Source of the DNA: Geobacter sp.
GTDB lineage: Bacteria; Desulfobacterota; Desulfuromonadia; Geobacterales; Pseudopelobacteraceae
Assembly: GCA_009885845.1 (NCBI GenBank)
Contig: VFJW01000133.1
Coordinates: forward strand, 1-64,000
Length of the DNA: 64,000 nucleotides
Reading direction: 5' to 3'
A program made the position numbers and the translations under genes. This document shows positions 4,207 to 55,509 of the stretch, one piece after another (within the stretch, counting starts at the first letter, position 1; every line of letters starts with the position of its first letter). The notes beneath the pieces are model-generated. The model worked only from the letters and a program-made list of their open reading frames with translations, was not told where the DNA came from and made no database searches.

Positions 4207-4629
4207 ATGTTAATGCCGAAACGGGTAAAACATAGAAAGCAGATGAAGGGGCGTATGTCCGGTAAGCCTTGTAGAGGAATTGAGCTCTCTTTTGGCGAAT
4301 TTGGATTACAGGCAACAGAGTGCGGATGGCTTGACTCACGTCAGATTGAGGCAGCTCGTATTGCTATGACCCGTTATATTAAAAGGGGAGGTAAAATATG
4401 GATTCGTATTTTCCCCGACAAACCACTTACTGCTAAGCCGGCTGAAACCAGGATGGGTAAAGGCAAAGGTTCTCCTGATTCATGGGTCTGTGTTATAAAG
4501 CCGGGCGTCGTGTTGTATGAAATGGAAGGCGTGACAGAGGAAATTGCGCGTGAAGCATTCAGGCTCGCAGCTCACAAACTGCCCCTTTCTACAAAGTTTA
4601 TTTCCAGGGGAGATGTTCATGAAGCCTAA
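4207..4629 (+). CDS. rplP: Ribosomal protein L16
   Basis: A 140-residue L16 starting [16 protein letters not shown] with the family segments GRGIEL-like ([15 protein letters not shown]) and RMGKGKG. L16 shapes the A-site on the 50S subunit. Its 3' end overlaps the rpmC start by 11 bases, implying translational coupling. Confidence 0.97.
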
Positions 4630-4822
4630 TGACCTCAGAAAAATATCAGCTGAAGATCTTATTAAAAAGCAGACTGAATCTACTCAGGAACTTTTTAATC
4701 TAAAATTCCAGCTTCATACAGGCAGATTAGAAAATACTTCCAAGCTGAAGAACCTTCGGAAGGATATTGCCAGAATTAATACCATTCTCACCGAGAGCAA
4801 GGCAGGGGGAGTATCTAAATGA
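4619..4822 (+). CDS. rpmC: Ribosomal protein L29
   Basis: A 67-residue L29 beginning [14 protein letters not shown] and ending in the helical segment [14 protein letters not shown] typical of L29. The start at 4619 has CAGGGGAG six bases upstream and lies inside the end of rplP. A longer in-frame open frame from 4544 is only read-through into the rplP-overlapping region. The stop overlaps the rpsQ start (ATGA). Confidence 0.95.
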
Positions 4823-5076
4823 GTGAACGCGGTCACAGAAAAACTCAAGTAGGTGTTGTTGTGAGTGATAAGATGGAAAAGACAGTAGTTGTTAAAGTCG
4901 ACCGTCTTGTAAAGCACAGTGTCTACAGTAAATATATAAAGCGCAGTGTAAAGTATAAGGTTCACGATGAACTCAACAGTTCAAAAGTCGGAGATCGTGT
5001 TCAGATTATTGAATGCCGTCCGTTAAGTAAAGACAAACGTTGGAGCCTTAAGCAGATAATTGAAAGCATCTCTTAG
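4819..5076 (+). CDS. rpsQ: Ribosomal protein S17
   Basis: An 85-residue S17 (OB fold) with [14 protein letters not shown] near the start and the conserved [15 protein letters not shown] segment. It binds 16S rRNA early in assembly. It overlaps rpmC by four bases and is normal in length. Confidence 0.96.
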
Positions 5077-5094
5077 CATAGGGAGTAACATCTA

Positions 5095-5463
5095 ATGATT
5101 CAAATGCAGACAGTACTGGATGTAGCCGACAACTCAGGTGCAAAAAAATTATTTTGTATCAAAGTGCTTGGCGGCTCTAAAAGAAAATATGCAAGTGTAG
5201 GTGACATTATTGTTGCTTCTGTGCGTGAAGCTATGCCTAATTCAAAGGTTAAAAAAGGCGATGTTGTTAAGGCGGTTGTTGTCAGAACTGCCAAAGCTCT
5301 GGGCCGTCCAGACGGTTCTTATATTCGTTTTGATGATAATTCAGGTGTTGTTATCAACAATGCCAAGGAACCGGTTGGTACTCGTATCTTCGGTCCGGTT
5401 GCCAGAGAATTACGCGCTAAAAAGTTCATGAAAATTATTTCTCTTGCACCGGAAGTACTATAA
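5095..5463 (+). CDS. rplN: Ribosomal protein L14
   Basis: A 122-residue L14 with the signature segments [30 protein letters not shown] and [14 protein letters not shown]14 forms an intersubunit bridge and is the binding site of the silencing factor RsfS. Normal. Confidence 0.97.
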
Positions 5464-5481
5464 AAATATCGGAGAATGATG

Positions 5482-5802
5482 ATGCAAGTCACAAAACCTC
5501 ATGTTAACAAGGGTGATACCGTAATGGTGATTGCCGGTAAGGAAAAAAACAAGACAGGCAAAATTCTTCAGTTGCTGCCCAAGAAAAATGGCGTCATTGT
5601 TGAAGGGCTTAATTTAATTAAACGTCATGTTAAAGCTAAAGGTAACGAAGCAGGTGAGATTAAGGAGAAGGAAGCACGCATTCATATCTCCAATGTTATG
5701 CCATACTGCGCAAAGTGCTCTAAGCCTGTAAGAACAACCAAGAAGTTTTTAGAAAATGGCGAAAAACAACGTGTATGTGTAAAGTGTGGCACAACGCTTT
5801 AG
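5482..5802 (+). CDS. rplX: Ribosomal protein L24
   Basis: A 106-residue L24 with the KOW motif ([22 protein letters not shown] region). Three ATG codons stand in a row at 5476, 5479 and 5482. GGAG at 5471-5474 fits only the last one, giving [12 protein letters not shown]. The C-terminus has a CAKC...CVKC pair (residues about 77-103), which may bind zinc, as in many bacterial L24 proteins. Confidence 0.94.
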
Positions 5803-7974: not shown

Positions 7975-8463
7975 TTGAGTAGGATTAATCCAGCAGAACT
8001 AAATCTAACCGACAAAGTAGTTCATATCAGTCGTGTTGCCAAAGTAGTTAAAGGTGGTCGCCGGTTCAGTTTTTCAGCATTGATAGTTGTCGGTGACGGC
8101 AACGGTTATGTTGGATATGGTCTTGGTAAGGCTAATGAGGTTCCTGAAGCCATCAGGAAGGGCGTAGAACAGGCTAAAAAGAACCTTATTAAAGTGCCCG
8201 TTAATTCAAGTCAAACGATTCCTTTTGAAATTGAAGGTAAGTTTGGTGCCGGACGTCTTCTTATGAAGCCAGCTTCTGCTGGTACTGGCGTGATCGCCGG
8301 TGGGGCCGCACGTGCAATTTTTGAAGCGGCAGGCATTAACAATATTCTCTCCAAATGTTTAGGATCAAATAATCCTCATAACGTTATAAAAGCAGCTTTT
8401 CAGGGTCTTCAACGTCTTAAGACACCCGAAGAAATTGCCGCTCGTCGTGGTATCACTGAATAA
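7975..8463 (+). CDS. rpsE: Ribosomal protein S5 (TTG start)
   Basis: A 162-residue S5. It has the double-stranded RNA-binding-like N-terminal domain ([16 protein letters not shown]...[17 protein letters not shown]) and the C-terminal domain with [16 protein letters not shown]5 affects decoding accuracy and mRNA helicase activity. The start is TTG with AGGAGG upstream; no ATG fits the conserved beginning [16 protein letters not shown]. Confidence 0.96.
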
Positions 8464-8484
8464 TTTTTTACGGGGAACTAAATT

Positions 8485-8661
8485 ATGAGCAGTTTACTTA
8501 AGATAACGCTTACAAAAAGTACTATATGTACTCCAAAAAAGCATCGCGCTGTAGTTGCAGGTCTTGGTCTGTCAAAGCTAAATCAAACCGTCCAGCGTCA
8601 AGACAACCCACAAATCAGGGGTATGATCAATAAAGTTGGTCATCTATTGACCGTTGAATAG
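8485..8661 (+). CDS. rpmD: Ribosomal protein L30
   Basis: A 58-residue protein found by reading between rpsE and rplO. It contains LKITLTKSTICTPKKHRAVV-type L30 start, then GLGLSKLNQTVQRQDNPQIRGMI and VGHLLTVE at the end, all typical of bacterial L30. Its weak ribosome site (ACGGGGAAC) and position between S5 and L15 are standard for the spc operon. Confidence 0.95.
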   Translation: MSSLLKITLTKSTICTPKKHRAVVAGLGLSKLNQTVQRQDNPQIRGMINKVGHLLTVE

Positions 8662-8679
8662 ATAAAGGGGTTTATTTCC

Positions 8680-9123
8680 ATGGAACTGAATAATCTGAGA
8701 CCTTCTATCGGCTCAACAAAAAACAGAAAACGCATTGGTCGTGGTACCGGATCTGGTCACGGGAAAACTGCTACTAAGGGCCATAAAGGCCAAAAAGCCC
8801 GTTCAGGCGGCAGCATTAAGGCAGGTTTTGAAGGTGGCCAGATGCCTCTGCAGCGTCGATTGCCAAAGCGTGGTTTCACACCGCTTGACCGCGTTGTGTA
8901 TTCACTTGTAAACATTAGTCAACTTGACGTATTTGATGTCGGTTCAGTTATTGATGTTGCGGCGCTTGTGTCTAAAGGTCTTATTAAATCAGATCGTTAT
9001 TCTGTTAAAATTCTTGGCAGTGGTGACATCGCAAAGTCGGTAAAAGTGTCTGCGAATAAGTTCAGCCAGTCAGCAAAAGATAAAATTATTGCCGCTGGTG
9101 GTAGTGTTGAGGAGATCGCATAG
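8680..9123 (+). CDS. rplO: Ribosomal protein L15
   Basis: A 147-residue L15 with the basic Gly-rich N-terminal extension ([19 protein letters not shown]) that winds through 23S rRNA, then [18 protein letters not shown]. The stop shares one base with the secY start, so the pair is probably translationally coupled. Confidence 0.97.
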
Positions 9124-49161: not shown

Positions 49162-49941
49162 TCAATTGTGCGAAAGCTGGCTTCCGGCTTGTCGCAGTTC
49201 ACGGTAGACCGGCACCGGTACCGGTTTGCCCTCTATTATCCGGAGCACGCTGAAGTGCAGATGTGTCGGTGAGCGACGCTTTGCGGCGTTAAGGCCGCTG
49301 CGACCCATGGTTGCCAGCAGATCGCCCGGCTTTACTATTGCTCCCAATTCAACAAACAGCTCTTCAATATGAGCGTAGTATACCAGCAGTTCGTTCGCGG
49401 GATCGTAGATCCAGATATATTTGCCGCCGCGCAGTTTGCTCCCCGGCTGCCATTCATTTTCGAGCGCTACAACGACTCCGGCGGTCATGGATACGATCTG
49501 AACGGTTTTGCCGGTGCGGTCATCGCGGCTGTCCTGGTTCCGGTCGCGAATAAAGATGTCGTACGCCGGATGGCCGCCGTGGCGATTGCCGCTGAAGAAG
49601 TCGTAGCCGCCCGGTACGAAACCGTGGTTTTTCCCTTTGTCGATGGCAGCGGCGGTGTAGCCTGCCACCGGAAACACCCAGCCGGTTGATGGATAGTCGC
49701 TGCCGCCGCGCTGGTAGTATTCCGTGCGAATCCGGGCGAGTTTTACCGGCAGTTCAGAACGGGCCGCAGCTTTGCTGATGCGGCCGTCGCGGATGGCGCT
49801 GTTGATTTCATTGAAATCGGAGCAGAGAGTGCGTATATCCTTCGCGTCCAATGCTGGTGCGGTTACTGTCGCAGCTGCCGGTGAAAATTGCAGCATCAGG
49901 CAGAATAGCAGAGACGGCAGCAAACGGCCGGGATGATTCAT
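49162..49941 (-). CDS. Exported M23-family (LytM-type) metallopeptidase
   Basis: 259 residues with a signal peptide (about 1-24, ending PAAA). A helical N-terminal part (about 30-75) precedes the catalytic domain. Zinc-site sequences are visible: GHPAYDIF (His and Asp) and THLHFSV (the HxH), plus YAHIEEL. M23 enzymes cut peptidoglycan cross-links or act as regulators of amidases; with both His motifs intact it is probably active. AAAGGAT precedes the ATG. Separated from the metal cluster upstream by a terminator. Confidence 0.85.
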   Translation of the reverse strand: MNHPGRLLPSLLFCLMLQFSPAAATVTAPALDAKDIRTLCSDFNEINSAIRDGRISKAAARSELPVKLARIRTEYYQRGGSDYPSTGWVFPVAGYTAAAIDKGKNHGFVPGGYDFFSGNRHGGHPAYDIFIRDRNQDSRDDRTGKTVQIVSMTAGVVVALENEWQPGSKLRGGKYIWIYDPANELLVYYAHIEELFVELGAIVKPGDLLATMGRSGLNAAKRRSPTHLHFSVLRIIEGKPVPVPVYRELRQAGSQLSHN

Positions 49942-50002: not shown

Positions 50003-50036
50003 ATGAGCCGGCAGAAAGTTTTTTCTGCCGGCTCAT
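50003..50036 (-). terminator. Terminator hairpin after the NosL-like genes
   Basis: ATGAGCCGGCAGAAA (50003-50017) and TTTCTGCCGGCTCAT (50022-50036) form a perfect 15-pair stem with a four-base loop. It lies 22 bases beyond the stop of the last gene of the - strand cluster, marking its end. Confidence 0.8.
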
Positions 50037-50057: not shown

Positions 50058-50552
50058 TTATATCTTGTGGTTGCCATGTCCTTTATGGTCATGCGGCTTC
50101 ATGCTTTTTGCCCGGTCTGCTGCATCCATTTCGGCCGCCTTGAGCACCTCGTCAAAAGTGGCAAGCGTGCCGCCGTTAGACTTTATAAAGGCTGCTGCGT
50201 CTGCTTTTTCGGCAAACGCCCATTTGGCAGTTTTGGTCATGACGCCTTTCTTGCTGCCGCCAATGGCCCAGACCGCTGTTTTTGCATCGCTCAGTTTTCT
50301 ACTGTTATAATCAGCGACCTGAAAGGATTTGACCTCTTTTTTACTCTCTTTCAGGTCTGTTACCACACAGTTGATGCTGCAGGTGCCGGTGCTGCTGCCG
50401 TCGGTATAGGAGACAACCATGCGGCTATGGGAAAATATTGTGCGATCCATACCGCAATGTTTACAGGAGTCCGGTGCTTCGACTTTTTCGGCGGCCAGAC
50501 AGACGGCGGCGAGTGAGAGTGCGAGCAACAGTGCGATCCAGATTTTTTTCAT
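50058..50552 (-). CDS. NosL-like exported metal-binding protein, His-rich tail
   Basis: 164 residues from MKKIWIALLLALSLAAVCLA (signal peptide). The mature part has the NosL-type site SCKHCGMDR, and CSINC about 35 residues later, both in positions matching NosL, which binds Cu(I) for nitrous oxide reductase maturation. The C-terminus is His-rich (MKPHDHKGHGNHKI). No nosZ is in the window, so the client is unknown. Last gene of the cluster; shares the pattern CGMDR...GTCSxxC...WxIGG with the next gene upstream, its paralogue. Confidence 0.83.
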   Translation of the reverse strand: MKKIWIALLLALSLAAVCLAAEKVEAPDSCKHCGMDRTIFSHSRMVVSYTDGSSTGTCSINCVVTDLKESKKEVKSFQVADYNSRKLSDAKTAVWAIGGSKKGVMTKTAKWAFAEKADAAAFIKSNGGTLATFDEVLKAAEMDAADRAKSMKPHDHKGHGNHKI

Positions 50553-50581
50553 GGTGGTGATCTCCTTTATGCTTGAGTTGT

Positions 50582-51055
50582 TTATCTCAGTTTCGGTGCG
50601 GCATCTACTCTGGCTGCAGCCAGCGCTTCGTTCCAGGTTACAACAGTCCCGCCGTAGGAATCCAAAAATTTCTGTGCTGCTTCTCTGGTGGCAAAGGCCC
50701 ATTTTGCACGCATTGTCATGACGCCGCGCTTTGTACCTCCAATGGTCCAGACAGCCTTTTCTGCATCAATTAATTGCCGTGTATTGCGATCAGCGACTTT
50801 GAATGTTATCACCGCTTCGTTTTTTTTGCTGTTCAATTCAGTTGCTACACAGTGCAGCGAACAGGTGCCGATCTGTGTTTCGTTTTTATATTCCACCAGC
50901 ATCCTGCTGTAGCCGTACGCTTTTCGATCCATGCCGCAGTGTGCGCAGTCGCGGTGGTTGTCAATGTCAGTCCCGGCAAAAGCGGTAATGCCAAGAAGAA
51001 ACAGCAGCAGTAATGTCGTTACCGCTGAAAAGACCGCAAGTTTTATCTGTTTCAT
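50582..51055 (-). CDS. NosL-like exported metal-binding protein
   Basis: 157 residues, signal peptide or anchor at about 5-28 (AVTTLLLLFLLGITAFA). DCAHCGMDRKAYGYSRM is the NosL-type metal site; GTCSLHCVA is the second Cys pair. About half identical by eye to the 50058 gene over the core (VADxNTRxLxDAxxAVWxIGG, KRGVMTxRAKWAFA), so the two are tandem duplicates that have diverged in their tails. Lies 29 bases upstream of it. Confidence 0.83.
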   Translation of the reverse strand: MKQIKLAVFSAVTTLLLLFLLGITAFAGTDIDNHRDCAHCGMDRKAYGYSRMLVEYKNETQIGTCSLHCVATELNSKKNEAVITFKVADRNTRQLIDAEKAVWTIGGTKRGVMTMRAKWAFATREAAQKFLDSYGGTVVTWNEALAAARVDAAPKLR

Positions 51056-51082
51056 ACAAACTCCTTGAATTACCTTAAATTA

Positions 51083-51625
51083 CTACGGCAGAGCGGTAAG
51101 GATCGTACGAAGGTTTGTACCATCACGGTAGTCTTCGTTCATCCTGACGATGCCGGCACTGTCGACAACCACGGTTGTCCCCATGGTCCCATTGAAGTTG
51201 CTGGTCAGGGTATGGTTTATATCAACAAGTGTCGTGAACACCCCACCGGCATAGCCATTTGCTGAGGCAGATGCCGCGGATTCGGCGACGCTGCCGGAGA
51301 GATAATCTACCAGGAAAAAATTGACATCAGAAAATGACGGGATTATCGAAGTGCGCATGCTGCTCATGTGACTGTCGCAGACCGGGCACCACATGGTGAA
51401 GTAAATGACAGCCCCTTTTTTTCCGGATAAGGAAGACGCTAGTGTAACGGTTGCGTAGTTGGTATCTGAAACCGAAAAATCGGGTGCTTTCTGGGTGACG
51501 CTGCTGCCGCTGCTGCCGGACTGGATCACCGGGCGCTTGTCTGTACCGGAAGGAAACATGTTGTCACCGCAGGCGGTCAAGCCGACGAGGAACAACAGGA
51601 GTGCTGCTGATTTACAGGAAAACAT
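51083..51625 (-). CDS. Thioredoxin-like (TlpA/redoxin) lipoprotein
   Basis: 180 residues from MFSCKSAALLLFLVGLTACGD at 51625; lipobox LTAC. The domain has QKAPDFSVSD and the active-site-like MWCPVCDSH (CxxC) in the TlpA/redoxin position, then VVVDSAGIVRMNED. Membrane-anchored thiol-disulfide protein, possibly reducing Cys in neighbouring metal-binding proteins or moving copper as Sco proteins do. Its start overlaps the end of the barrel gene by 14 bases. The open frame extends 49 codons upstream without conserved sequence. Confidence 0.8.
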   Translation of the reverse strand: MFSCKSAALLLFLVGLTACGDNMFPSGTDKRPVIQSGSSGSSVTQKAPDFSVSDTNYATVTLASSLSGKKGAVIYFTMWCPVCDSHMSSMRTSIIPSFSDVNFFLVDYLSGSVAESAASASANGYAGGVFTTLVDINHTLTSNFNGTMGTTVVVDSAGIVRMNEDYRDGTNLRTILTALP

Positions 51626-52592
51626 AGCGCACCCCCACTGATAGCACGTTTGTTGTCGGAAAATTTTGTCCCCAGCCGTTCTGTTTGACAGCATGGTTCC
51701 AACCGGTTCTGATGCTCCAGTTACTGTCGTTGTTAGAATAGGTAACGGCAAGGCCAAGAGACTGCTTGTCAAAACCGCTGCCGGAGTCCCGTTTTCCGTT
51801 GAAACTGGCGTCGGCTTCTTTCATGTATGTGTAGGAAACGCTGCCGGCTATACTGTCACCGCCGGTGCCAAGTATGTAGGTATACCCGGTGGAAAGTGAC
51901 GCAGAGAAGCGATCGCCCAGATCTTTTTTGTATGGCTCCACATATTTCCCATACTCACGGTTGATGGATCGTTCAAGGTAGGTGCCGTAGGCAAGAGCAA
52001 GAGAAATATTCCAGGGGCGGATGGTTTTTTCAATCAGCAGCGTACCGTCTAACCGATAAAAGCCGCGTCCGGTAATATCAAAACTGCTCTCCTGGTTGTC
52101 ATACGGAGAAAGGCCGGTGGGAAGCAGGAACGATAATCCCAGGGATACCCCCGGGATCATATCGCCGATATCCCGCACTTTCCAGGCACTGTTGTCGTCC
52201 GACAGTTCATAAGTCAGCGAAACGGTCATATCTCCAAGCCCGTTTGTCTGTGAGGAAACGCCGGAATATTTATTGTCGTTCCAGATATACGGCAGTGAAA
52301 TGCTTGTCTGCCAATCAGTCGCAAAACGATATCCCGCCCCCATGTTCATCCGATACTGCTTAAGATCAGAACCGGAAGGGTCGGCGATATGCTTCCTGTT
52401 TTGATTCCAGTAGCCGTCATACAGTTCCGCATCAAAGGAGAGGTCAGCAACTGCGGTGGCATATTTGGGAACGGTGAGCGATGCCGCTGAACCGCCGCCG
52501 CAGCAGGATGCGGCCTGCGATTGAGCAGGGAAAAGGGTGGCAGCCCCCGCGAGGAGGGCTGCCGTAATGATTGAAAGGGTTTCCTGTTTCAT
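51612..52592 (-). CDS. Outer-membrane beta-barrel protein with CCGGG N-terminus
   Basis: 326 residues from MKQETLSIITAALLAG (52592). A signal peptide ends AQSQA, immediately followed by ASCCGGGSA, so the mature protein begins with a Cys-Cys pair. The rest is alternating amphipathic strands (GAGYRFATDWQTSISLPYIW, GLGDMTVSLTYEL, FSASLSTGYTYILG) ending in VRYVFL with a terminal aromatic pattern, as in outer-membrane barrels related to the phenol-degradation MetA transporter family. Lies seven bases after the lipoprotein gene. Its cargo is unknown. Confidence 0.78.
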   Translation of the reverse strand: MKQETLSIITAALLAGAATLFPAQSQAASCCGGGSAASLTVPKYATAVADLSFDAELYDGYWNQNRKHIADPSGSDLKQYRMNMGAGYRFATDWQTSISLPYIWNDNKYSGVSSQTNGLGDMTVSLTYELSDDNSAWKVRDIGDMIPGVSLGLSFLLPTGLSPYDNQESSFDITGRGFYRLDGTLLIEKTIRPWNISLALAYGTYLERSINREYGKYVEPYKKDLGDRFSASLSTGYTYILGTGGDSIAGSVSYTYMKEADASFNGKRDSGSGFDKQSLGLAVTYSNNDSNWSIRTGWNHAVKQNGWGQNFPTTNVLSVGVRYVFL

Positions 52593-52599
52593 AGCCGTG

Positions 52600-54195
52600 C
52601 TACATTCCGGCGACAACGGTAAATGTCGCGAAATCGTTTGTTCCGGTAACGGCTACTGTGCCGTCGGTCGTTTTTTGTTCGCCGTCTATAATTACCCGTA
52701 CCCAGACCGTTCCGCCAGCGGCCAGCCCGGTTAATCCTGAAACGGACCAGTGACCTGAACCAGTGGCAGTCAGGCTGCTCCAGGTGGAACCATTATCAGT
52801 AGAAGCATCGATGGCCATGCTTGCTACTGTCCTGGCGACGTTCATCTCGTTATGCAGTGTGCTGCCGATCGAAACGGCTGGAAACTTCATCATCATGCTG
52901 TCATCGGCTGCTGCTATGAACAACTTGAGGGCACTGCTCATTCCGAAGGTAGAGCTGTCATTGAAGAGATAATAGGTGCGTTTGGAGGTTACCATTCCCA
53001 TCATGGAGCCAATAACGTCACTTACCCCCTTGAGAGTCACCCGGTTTGTCGTGCCCATGGACATTGCAACAGGTGGATAAAATGTTGCGGACTCCATGCC
53101 GACCATCACCTTCAGTTCCCAGATGCCCATGCCGGGACCGGATGCCATCAGATAATAAACAGAACAGTCATACGTGCCCGGTGTGGAAGATTCCACGACG
53201 GTATCAACGGGAGTTGAGTGGGACATACTGGCCATATACATTTTTGGCATCAGGGTAATGGTTTTTCCGGTTGCAGCAGAACCATCAAGGTTGCTGAGCT
53301 TTATTTGGAAGGTCGATTTTCCCTGGGTAGCTGCCATCATGCCCGGGACATATTCGACAATGTAACTGGCTGTCACAACCTTTTTTGCAAAGGGGGGCGC
53401 CCCTATCCTGTCAGGCGTCAATCTGGATTTATTGCCACTGCTCATTTGGAAATTCATCAGCGCCTGAGCGAATTTGCTGCACAAATCTACCGGCATGGTT
53501 TTGGTAGCCACTATATAGCCGCCATCAAGTGTCCCGTCTGCAAGGTCGGCAGCTATGGCGTTGATCAGAGCAAACTGATCGCCTGGAGAAAGCGTCAGAT
53601 CCATTGCCAACTGGCTGAATGCCGCAGCTCGAAGTCCTGCAAGACGCTGGGGAGTTGTTGAGGCGCTGGACATTCCTGCGAAAGCGGGTTTGATCGAGCT
53701 GTCCGGGGTGTAGCCAAATGCCGCAAGAAATGTACTTTCTGCCACAGCCTTGGTTTTTCCTCCTGCAATCAGCTTTTGAATGATTGTTGAAGATGGATCG
53801 ATGGCGACGGTAGCTCCGGAAGCGAGGCTGCCGGCAGCGGCATGGCTGGTAAGTGTCCCCATTGTCACGCCGCTGGTTGCTGTCGCTTCATCAGAAAAAG
53901 TCCCGCCGCTCGCGTCAAAAACGAGATCGCCGGTGAGAGCCGAGTTTGGAATTGATATTGAGTATGAACCATCTGCCCCGGTAGTAACCGGTCCGGCGAC
54001 AACCGTACCGGAGGTTGTTTTTACGGTTACTGATGTGCCGCTGGCCGGCCCTGCCATGACGACACCGGACACTGATGTCGTCGTCGATGGGGTAATACTA
54101 CTGGTATTGCTGCTGGAGCTGCTGCAGCCGGATGAGATGATTGAGAGGCAGACGATTACTGCCGCTTTGGAAAGGATATATGCCGATGACTTCAT
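52600..54195 (-). CDS. Met-rich lipoprotein with FixH/YtkA-like region
   Basis: 531 residues from MKSSAYILSKAAVIVCLSIISSGCSS (lipobox SSGC). The first third has a carboxypeptidase-regulatory-like beta repeat (SVSGVVMAGPASGTSVTVKT...GADGSYSISIP) and a helical part. The centre (about 290-390) resembles FixH/YtkA domains (LMPKMYMASMSHSTPV, YLMASGPGMGIWELKV). Methionines are unusually dense there (KMYMASM, AMSMG, SMMGM, DDSMMMK), a pattern of Cu(I)-binding Mets. It precedes the barrel gene with GGAG upstream of its start and an inverted repeat at 54235 in its promoter region. Confidence 0.78.
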   Translation of the reverse strand: MKSSAYILSKAAVIVCLSIISSGCSSSSSNTSSITPSTTTSVSGVVMAGPASGTSVTVKTTSGTVVAGPVTTGADGSYSISIPNSALTGDLVFDASGGTFSDEATATSGVTMGTLTSHAAAGSLASGATVAIDPSSTIIQKLIAGGKTKAVAESTFLAAFGYTPDSSIKPAFAGMSSASTTPQRLAGLRAAAFSQLAMDLTLSPGDQFALINAIAADLADGTLDGGYIVATKTMPVDLCSKFAQALMNFQMSSGNKSRLTPDRIGAPPFAKKVVTASYIVEYVPGMMAATQGKSTFQIKLSNLDGSAATGKTITLMPKMYMASMSHSTPVDTVVESSTPGTYDCSVYYLMASGPGMGIWELKVMVGMESATFYPPVAMSMGTTNRVTLKGVSDVIGSMMGMVTSKRTYYLFNDSSTFGMSSALKLFIAAADDSMMMKFPAVSIGSTLHNEMNVARTVASMAIDASTDNGSTWSSLTATGSGHWSVSGLTGLAAGGTVWVRVIIDGEQKTTDGTVAVTGTNDFATFTVVAGM

Positions 54196-54234
54196 ATAAA
54201 AGGTCTCCTTGATTGAGAGTGCAACACAAGTACA

Positions 54235-54254
54235 GCACACGTGTCAACGTGCGC
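54235..54254. promoter_or_regulatory. Operator-like inverted repeat upstream of the Met-rich lipoprotein gene
   Basis: On the - strand GCGCACGT-TGAC-ACGTGTGC, arms matching at seven of eight positions. It contains TTGACA, a consensus -35, about 40 bases before the start codon. A regulator bound here would compete with RNA polymerase. No convincing -10 with standard spacing is visible. Confidence 0.6.
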
Positions 54255-54327
54255 AGCCTTAACCGGCGGCGCAACAGAGCGACCAGAAGGGTGCTATCCT
54301 TTGGAAAAGGTGTGGAAATACGTTGAA

Positions 54328-54918
54328 TCAGGAAGCGGAAGAAATTATCGGGGGTGGATCAGGTGGATCGACGTAACGCGATGTCAGGCGATCCGGTATA
54401 ATGGCGGCAAGAGGAATTTGCTCCGGAGAAAGCAGCTCTCCGGAAAAGAAATACGGCAGATGCTGGGTGGTTTCAATAGATAACAGTGTGAACAACTTGC
54501 CACCACTGCAGGGGGGATTGCCGATAGTGACCGGTTTTGATTTGTGAGGTGCAGGCGTGGAAGCGGCCGTCGTTTCAGCACTCTTTTCATGTGAGGCATG
54601 AGCAGGCGCATCACAACAGTCGGCTCTCTTTTCTGAGGATTCAACTACCGGTGCAGGCGGTATGCTGCAGACATCTGAAGCAGAAGGAAGGTGGGCATCA
54701 CCGGCATCGTACTTTTTTTTCTGCCAGCAGCAGCAGGTATGGGCGGCACTCCGCTCCAGTGAACAGCCGTCCACCTTACAGTCACCCGAACACTCCCCGG
54801 TAACGGCATGGGCGATGGCCTTCGACTGCATGGCAAGCGGTACCAGAGGAGTGACAACGATCAACAGGTAGATCGTTGTCATGAGCAGTGAAGTAATATA
54901 GCGATGTGACGTTGTCAT
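54328..54918 (-). CDS. Cys-rich membrane-anchored protein, unknown function
   Basis: 196 residues from MTTSHRYITSLLMTTIYLL (54918), with CAGGAG four bases upstream. An N-terminal membrane segment (about 8-32) is followed by Cys-dense sequence: GECSGDCKVDGCSLER and HTCCCWQKK (about 40-65), then ADCCDAPAHASHEK. A Pro/Ser/Thr-rich C-terminal half ends YVDPPDPPPIISS. The Cys spacing suggests metal binding. I do not recognise a characterised family. Lies 132 bases upstream of the lipoprotein gene, same strand. Confidence 0.75.
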   Translation of the reverse strand: MTTSHRYITSLLMTTIYLLIVVTPLVPLAMQSKAIAHAVTGECSGDCKVDGCSLERSAAHTCCCWQKKKYDAGDAHLPSASDVCSIPPAPVVESSEKRADCCDAPAHASHEKSAETTAASTPAPHKSKPVTIGNPPCSGGKLFTLLSIETTQHLPYFFSGELLSPEQIPLAAIIPDRLTSRYVDPPDPPPIISSAS

Positions 54919-55032
54919 GCTGCTCCTGAAGAAACCGGAGACGGTTAATTCATCAGGCAACTTCCTGATCGCCTCTTTCGTCGCATGGTACTCAATTTGA
55001 CTAATCGGGAACGATGTCTGAATCCACAGAAA

Positions 55033-55058
55033 TTGTATACGCCCGGATATTTGTATAC
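55033..55058. promoter_or_regulatory. Direct repeat of TTGTATAC, operator-like
   Basis: TTGTATAC at 55033-55040 and again at 55051-55058, 18 bases apart; each holds the palindrome GTATAC. They lie 115-140 bases upstream of the Cys-rich gene at 54918. A weak hairpin CCGATA-TTTT-TATCGG adjoins at 55072. Confidence 0.45.
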
Positions 55059-55140
55059 TATCGGCGAATGTCCGATATTTTTATCGGCAGATATGTATGA
55101 ACAGGCAGGACTCTGTCCTAAGGTAATTGAAACCGGCTTG

Positions 55141-55509
55141 CTACGGGACCTTCATCATTTCAGTCCCGCAGCTGCAACTGCCCGGTTTCTGGCTGATGGT
55201 GCCGCAGTTGCAGCCGTCACCGCAGCCACAGGCATACTTGGCTGTGGTAATGAAGTTCAACTCTTTGCCGTCAACGGTAACAACCGCCTTATCGCCTGCA
55301 ACTTTGCTGACGACTCCTTTACCAAGCGCATTGCCGCAGGAACACTTTCCCGCATTGCGCGACATGGTCTTGCAGTCGCAGCTATCGCCGCAGGTACACA
55401 CATAGACACTGTCCCCTTTTTTGTACACAGGAAGGGTCTTGTCAGCAAACGCGACAATTGCCACCAGCAACAGACTTGCAGCTAACAGAGCGATAAGGAT
55501 CTTTTTCAT
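55141..55509 (-). CDS. Exported CxCG-repeat Cys-rich protein (metallothionein-like)
   Basis: 122 residues with a signal peptide (MKKILIALLAASLLLVAIVAFA). The mature part has two copies of the same Cys array: CTCGDSCDCKTMSRNAGKCSCG and ACGCGDGCNCGTISQKPGSCSCG (each about 22 residues, quoted here as CTCGDSCDC...GKCSCG and CGCGDGCNC...GSCSCG), separated by a KOW-like stretch (GDKAVVTVDGKEL). Fourteen cysteines in about 98 mature residues imply soft-metal or Fe-S binding outside the cytoplasm. AAAAAGGAG precedes the ATG. Its own promoter-like TTGTAT-N16-TACAAT is present. Confidence 0.82.
   Translation of the reverse strand: MKKILIALLAASLLLVAIVAFADKTLPVYKKGDSVYVCTCGDSCDCKTMSRNAGKCSCGNALGKGVVSKVAGDKAVVTVDGKELNFITTAKYACGCGDGCNCGTISQKPGSCSCGTEMMKVP

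Follow-up and report, generated by a model that had tools for sequence, protein, structure and literature searches.

Gene content of the locus

The window analysed here is a stretch of 64,000 nucleotides from Geobacter sp. (contig VFJW01000133.1, positions 1 to 64,000; contig 39 of 179 in a fragmented assembly of 3.27 Mb), and the system in question is a gene cassette on its - strand for which a role in carrying copper across the cell envelope is proposed. Seven consecutive open reading frames (ORFs) run from 55509 to 50058, as a sequence-only reading of the same DNA had described, and encode a two-repeat Cys protein (CxCG), a Cys-rich leader protein (CCCW), a Met-rich lipoprotein (MRLP), an outer-membrane barrel (OMB), a TlpA-like lipoprotein (Tlp) and two NosL proteins (NosLa and NosLb). 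MRLP (531 aa, 52600..54195) is followed by OMB (326 aa, 51612..52592) and by Tlp (51083..51625), a TlpA/ResA-like lipoprotein with the active site TMWCPVC. The stop of OMB and the start of Tlp overlap by 14 nt (51612..51625), an offset that is conserved. CCCW (196 aa, with 54328..54918 as the preferred reading) is the operon leader, and NosLa (50582..51055), a cassette-linked periplasmic NosL-family protein of the CxxCGMDR type, follows Tlp.

Profile searches recovered the CxxC redoxin and the two NosL-like proteins that had been expected, as Tlp matches AhpC-TSA (42 bits, cut-off 26) and NosLb and NosLa match PF05573 (51.7 and 39.7 bits, cut-off 24). No Pfam family above cut-off was found for OMB, MRLP, CCCW or CxCG, with no reliable match at all for CCCW, and a PDB sequence search with OMB, MRLP and NosLa gave no significant match.

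A conserved core of three genes

Conserved linkage across genomes had been named in the sequence-only reading as a point on which its proposal could fail, and this linkage is very strong for a core of MRLP, OMB and Tlp. When 141 genomes of the order were searched with OMB, strong matches were obtained in 19, the window's own and 18 others (56–79% identity over the alignment), with a bimodal distribution in which a close homologue is either present or there is none. The relatives of the window genome are labelled Geobacteraceae or Desulfuromonadaceae. Culturable natural carriers include Geomonas silvestris Red330 and Geobacter sp. OR-1. MRLP, OMB, Tlp and NosL are contiguous in 18/18 other Geobacterales loci, with CCCW in front in most, and the 14-nt overlap with an ATG start of Tlp is kept in these 18 as well as in the window. 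A wide scan with one genome per species (84,980 species) found 103 OMB relatives. At 64 of the 66 loci outside Geobacterales, the core genes lie contiguously in this fixed order on the same strand, the exceptions being one locus truncated by a contig end and one in which MRLP is oriented divergently; the 14-nt overlap, with ATG or GTG as the Tlp start, recurs in 61 of the 66.

Judged by record titles and the NCBI grouping of the tree, the relatives belong to Pseudomonadota (Gamma- and Zetaproteobacteria), Nitrospirota, Nitrospinota, Myxococcota, Thermodesulfobacteriota, Spirochaetota and Acidobacteriota, which places the cassette in at least seven phyla, and single assignments may be wrong because most of these relatives are metagenome bins. 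The conserved unit is MRLP-OMB-Tlp, joined by NosL in one clade and, in most Geobacterales, by CCCW; CxCG and the second NosL, which occur elsewhere too, are accessories. The earlier idea of the seven genes as one unit did not stand, since apart from the window the complete set was seen in a single relative (genome G105, locus L027). No plasmid copies of OMB were found. One locus (L083) contains two OMB genes (4594-5577 and 8037-8828), and in one genome a decayed cassette was seen (L156:8073-9672), consisting of CCCW, a Tlp without its N-terminal part and NosL, with MRLP and OMB gone.

The barrel protein and its N-terminus

OMB is predicted to be a 12-strand barrel of the FapF/COG4313 channel fold. 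Its model (mean pLDDT 86.7, about 12 strands) superimposes on FapF (5o65_A) with a Z of 28.0 over 261 residues at 2.3 A and on the COG4313 channel (4rl8_C) with a Z of 25.6, and autotransporters score lower (Z 19–20). The profile of the latter channel family (PF13557, COG4313/Phenol_MetA_deg) is matched by 18 of 71 OMB members with E values of 1 or less (best 1.4e-7), and not by the window OMB. Against the FapF amyloid transporter model NF058560, OMB reached 20.3 bits, far below the cut-off of 700. It also has no match to the TonB-dependent receptor model TIGR01778, and its approximately 12 strands differ from the 22-strand barrel with a plug of such receptors.

What sets OMB apart from COG4313 and FapF, which likewise have an N-terminal segment before strand 1, is an invariant SCCG motif together with its fixed partners MRLP and Tlp. 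Ser29, Cys30, Cys31 and Gly32 are invariant in 71 homologues and lie directly behind the predicted signal peptide, so that SCCGGG (52491..52508) forms the predicted mature N-terminus before strand 1. A CCGGG end had been proposed from sequence alone; the motif was corrected to SCCGGG, with the gene start at 52592. The COG4313 structure shows the 14 residues at the N-terminus folded into the lumen, so that they plug the barrel from its periplasmic side (PMC4493636). The SCCG of OMB falls in the segment that matches this plug (residues 29–46), and its placement in the lumen is inferred from the related structure, because these residues are poorly defined in the model.

The Met-rich lipoprotein and the thioredoxin-like partner

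Among 69 homologues of MRLP, the only fully invariant residues are Met319, Met321 and Met350 (codons within 53146..53241), and His326 is kept in 94%. The predicted model (pLDDT 92.6) contains a filamin-like Ig domain at residues 276–381 (Z about 10). MRLP had been called FixH/YtkA-like; the window protein matches neither family, but 19 of the 69 relatives match YtkA (PF13115) weakly, with E values of 1 or less (best 4.9e-6). The copper-linked domain of YtkA/CtaK resembles MRLP in being Ig-like, whereas MRLP is much larger, with extra N- and C-terminal domains.

All 68 Tlp members match PF00578 and have an invariant CxxC. When residues are numbered from the second one onwards, Cys79, Cys82, Met77 and Trp78 are invariant, and His85 (94%) and Met147 (99%) are highly conserved. 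The residue after this conserved Met, Gly148, aligns with the cis-proline of solved thioredoxins, which in TlpA/ResA proteins lies opposite the active site; Pro occurs at this position in 0/68 Tlp, whereas it is kept in 29/29 ResA-like proteins that adjoin the core at other loci (15 assigned by pattern, 14 by eye). In human TRX1, a change of the cis-proline lets the active-site thiols take up a metal cluster (PMC6210436, citing Su 2007). Together with this precedent, the loss of the cis-proline makes a metal-binding Tlp likely, as far as residue conservation can tell. Tlp is not a Sco protein, for which CxxxC and a distal His are required; it shares with Sco the AhpC-TSA fold and presumably a Cu(I) site made of Cys and one further ligand, but has CxxC, with Met and Gly in the cis-proline loop in place of the Sco His.

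Parallel loci with a copper-receptor-like protein

The connection to copper comes from parallel loci that share CCCW, CxCG and NosL with the cassette. CCCW, an unnamed family with a hydrophobic N-terminal segment, a GDC..GC..CCC cluster and a Pro-rich tail, was found in 60 of the 141 genomes of the order. Outside the cassette, 22 of 60 CCCW sites have a NosL gene no more than 6 kb away, where about 0.3 would be expected. A parallel operon was identified that comprises CCCW, TonB, a TonB-dependent receptor, one or two NosL and then MacB and ABC genes, in some cases with CxCG between receptor and NosL. For four receptors of such operons, the best NCBIfam model is TIGR01778 (TonB-copper), matched over the full length with 250–263 bits. 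Each of the four has a single Cys, located within CPSRM and thus within a CxxxM motif. OprC binds Cu(I) through CxxxM-HxM, and NosL is also a Cu(I)-binding protein (PMC7558416).

Of 49 CCCW loci that were read, none contains OMB and 26 contain a TonB-dependent receptor, which has CxxxM in 23 cases. Receptor and cassette co-occur in 1 genome versus 4.0 expected (P 0.05, 141 genomes), and within the genus they share 0 genomes versus 2.5 expected (P 0.03), both values being uncorrected for shared ancestry. The core seems to replace a TonB-dependent copper receptor among the same accessory genes, and it was for this reason read as a TonB-independent outer-membrane copper gateway. In common with the NosA/OprC receptors, it would presumably serve copper entry at the outer membrane, and other genomes of the order have CCCW, CxCG and NosL next to receptors of this type. 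It differs in that OMB lacks the receptor plug domain and a TonB gene beside it and has a dithiol N-terminus instead of CxxxM, and in that the cassette adds MRLP and Tlp of its own.

CCCW-headed loci with TonB, a CPSRM receptor and NosL include L190, L191, L192, L194 and about 20 more, often with NosL-MacB-ABC behind. At two further sites (L157:5945-8836 and L189:4146-7019), a protein of ~960 aa with a Met-rich start and no Pfam family of note lies behind CCCW and adjoins a second type of TonB-dependent receptor (CPNHM).

Proposed function and alternative explanations

The best explanation, to which a probability of roughly 0.58 is given, is that the cassette carries copper, as Cu(I), across the envelope, more likely inward than outward, through a gateway that works without TonB. 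From the sequence, an undescribed system of the envelope, rich in soft-metal ligands and probably acting on copper, had been suspected; this is supported by the strong linkage of the genes and by the copper-receptor-like parallel loci. The analysis shows the gene order, the coupling of OMB and Tlp, the invariant residues and the accessory genes held in common with the receptor loci, and the folds of OMB and MRLP are predicted. Copper as the cargo is supported by association; its oxidation state, the direction, the gating and the order of transfer are proposals. According to this scheme, OMB would serve as a dedicated channel that needs no TonB. Its N-terminal segment would plug the lumen on the periplasmic side, with the invariant dithiol of SCCGGG at the channel exit or inner mouth, and the Met site of MRLP would bind Cu(I) at the outer membrane. 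Tlp, whose synthesis is in step with that of OMB and which is free of the metal-excluding cis-proline, might take Cu(I) from the OMB dithiol, or keep this dithiol reduced, via its CxxC and Met. NosL, and elsewhere a NosL-MacB transporter, would take the metal on to the inner membrane, and CCCW and CxCG may anchor or buffer it.

Several points weigh against this reading. The four receptors stay below the TIGR01778 cut-off of 472 bits, the mutual exclusion of receptor and cassette is weak as well as uncorrected, and the nearest solved relatives of OMB transport polypeptides or hydrophobic molecules. The core of Gamma- and Zetaproteobacteria comes without NosL, and copper ATPase, CopC and multicopper oxidase do not recur among the families listed for the neighbours of the core. 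A link to CuA oxidase was considered and rejected, as such oxidases are not enriched in cassette genomes (14/19 versus 88/141, P 0.2).

The main rival is the opposite direction, copper or silver export and detoxification, in which the barrel is the exit and the Met- and Cys-rich proteins scavenge excess periplasmic Cu(I) and hand it out. FapF, the nearest solved fold to OMB, is indeed an exporter, and the Cys-rich CxCG and CCCW resemble buffers. However, the accessories also occur at loci whose TonB-dependent receptors resemble copper receptors and act as importers, and P-type ATPase, RND pump and multicopper oxidase do not recur among the listed neighbour families (one RND match). Export is considered unlikely. 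Secretion or display of a protein by OMB, for example surface exposure of MRLP in the way FapF secretes amyloid, would fit the same fold match (Z 28.0) and the position of MRLP directly before OMB in nearly all loci. By sequence, OMB is equally near COG4313, as the PF13557 matches indicate, and such a function leaves SCCG, the metal-type thioredoxin and NosL unexplained; it is regarded as the least probable of the alternatives.

Hardly more probable is a role in redox-protein maturation, with Tlp and OMB as a thiol-disulphide or cytochrome-assembly system and the metal incidental. In Gamma- and Zetaproteobacteria, the core is often followed by a small CxxCH cytochrome c, at 31 loci, and by a second protein, ResA-like, at 27, as such a system would have it. 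Yet the loss of the cis-proline beside a conserved Met is odd for a plain reductase, the invariants of MRLP are Met only, NosL is present in a large clade, and the accessories are common with copper-receptor-like loci. For the copper gateway, the cytochrome and the ResA-like protein may supply reduction where NosL is missing.

A stronger form of the gateway proposal is put forward only tentatively and is rather doubtful, namely that OMB is the first outer-membrane gate known to import copper specifically and without TonB, and that it is present in at least seven phyla. In this version, the dithiol in its plug would open or be loaded through Cu(I)/disulphide exchange with a metal-binding thioredoxin that is translated together with OMB. 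Copper passage across the outer membrane is poorly known, and a 2020 review lists as established routes only general porins, the TonB-dependent NosA/OprC and chalkophore uptake (PMC7558416). No literature on the cassette was found in the searches made, which mostly did not reach subscription journals; copper trafficking in the envelope is a known kind of system, and within the reach of these searches the gateway is new. If true, it would add a further copper route, in iron-cycling and sulphur-oxidising groups among others, a testable idea of a redox gate, and a function for four protein families that now have none.

Variable neighbours and other features

NosL lies 3' of the core in Geobacterales and also at Nitrospirota, Syntrophaceae and Myxococcota loci that fall within one supported OMB clade (100/99, 23 rows); a weak NosL match at L062 is the sole case outside this clade. 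The second NosL, represented in the window by NosLb with its His-rich tail (50058..50552), stands beside the cassette in only some genomes. CxCG (55141..55509, from the ORF call) is an exported protein of 122 aa with two repeats and 12 Cys, not 14 as had been counted; homologues occur in 28 of the 141 genomes but beside the cassette in only four (window, L027, L032 and L038), and away from it they sometimes adjoin tandem NosL genes.

MacB/FtsX permeases recur near the core. A recurrent module, sometimes found beside the cassette, combines NosL with a small protein, a MacB-like permease, an ABC ATPase and a multi-TM protein without a name; it was seen at L029, L035 and L036 and on contig 65 of the window's own genome (L124:4699-8384). 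Modules of this kind and the genes for NosL-family Cu(I) chaperones recall NosL-NosDFY of nitrous oxide reductase maturation; the differences are that the cassette NosL has no evident lipobox and that no NosZ of type TIGR04246 was found in the window genome, other NosZ types being unsearched and the assembly fragmented. The earlier statement that neither nosZ nor an oxidase is nearby holds among the genes examined around the cassette. Away from it, the genome encodes a cbb3 oxidase and also an aa3-type oxidase, with COX1 and COX3 lying at a contig end; COX2 was not found, and with COX1 at a contig end its absence is not established. CopC was looked for and is absent, and HMA domains are present elsewhere in the genome.

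The perfect hairpin that had been noted behind the last gene (50003..50036, - strand) was corroborated by folding (-30.8 kcal/mol, z -8.3) and is not among the results of a simple terminator scan. Promoter and terminator scans remained at chance level, and no upstream motif shared across 15 leaders rose above shuffles. An M23 peptidase gene (49162-49941) lies behind the cassette in the window, with a homologue near the relatives' cassettes only in L026 and L027.

FtrD-like proteins (PF10080), a family known from Campylobacter iron uptake, account for four of the scanned neighbours, in Nitrospirota loci, and adjoin the core at L055, L061, L063, L091 and L092. In several Gamma- and Zetaproteobacteria, a histidine kinase and a response regulator are encoded beside the core (L105-L108, L110, L112, L097, L072 and L085).

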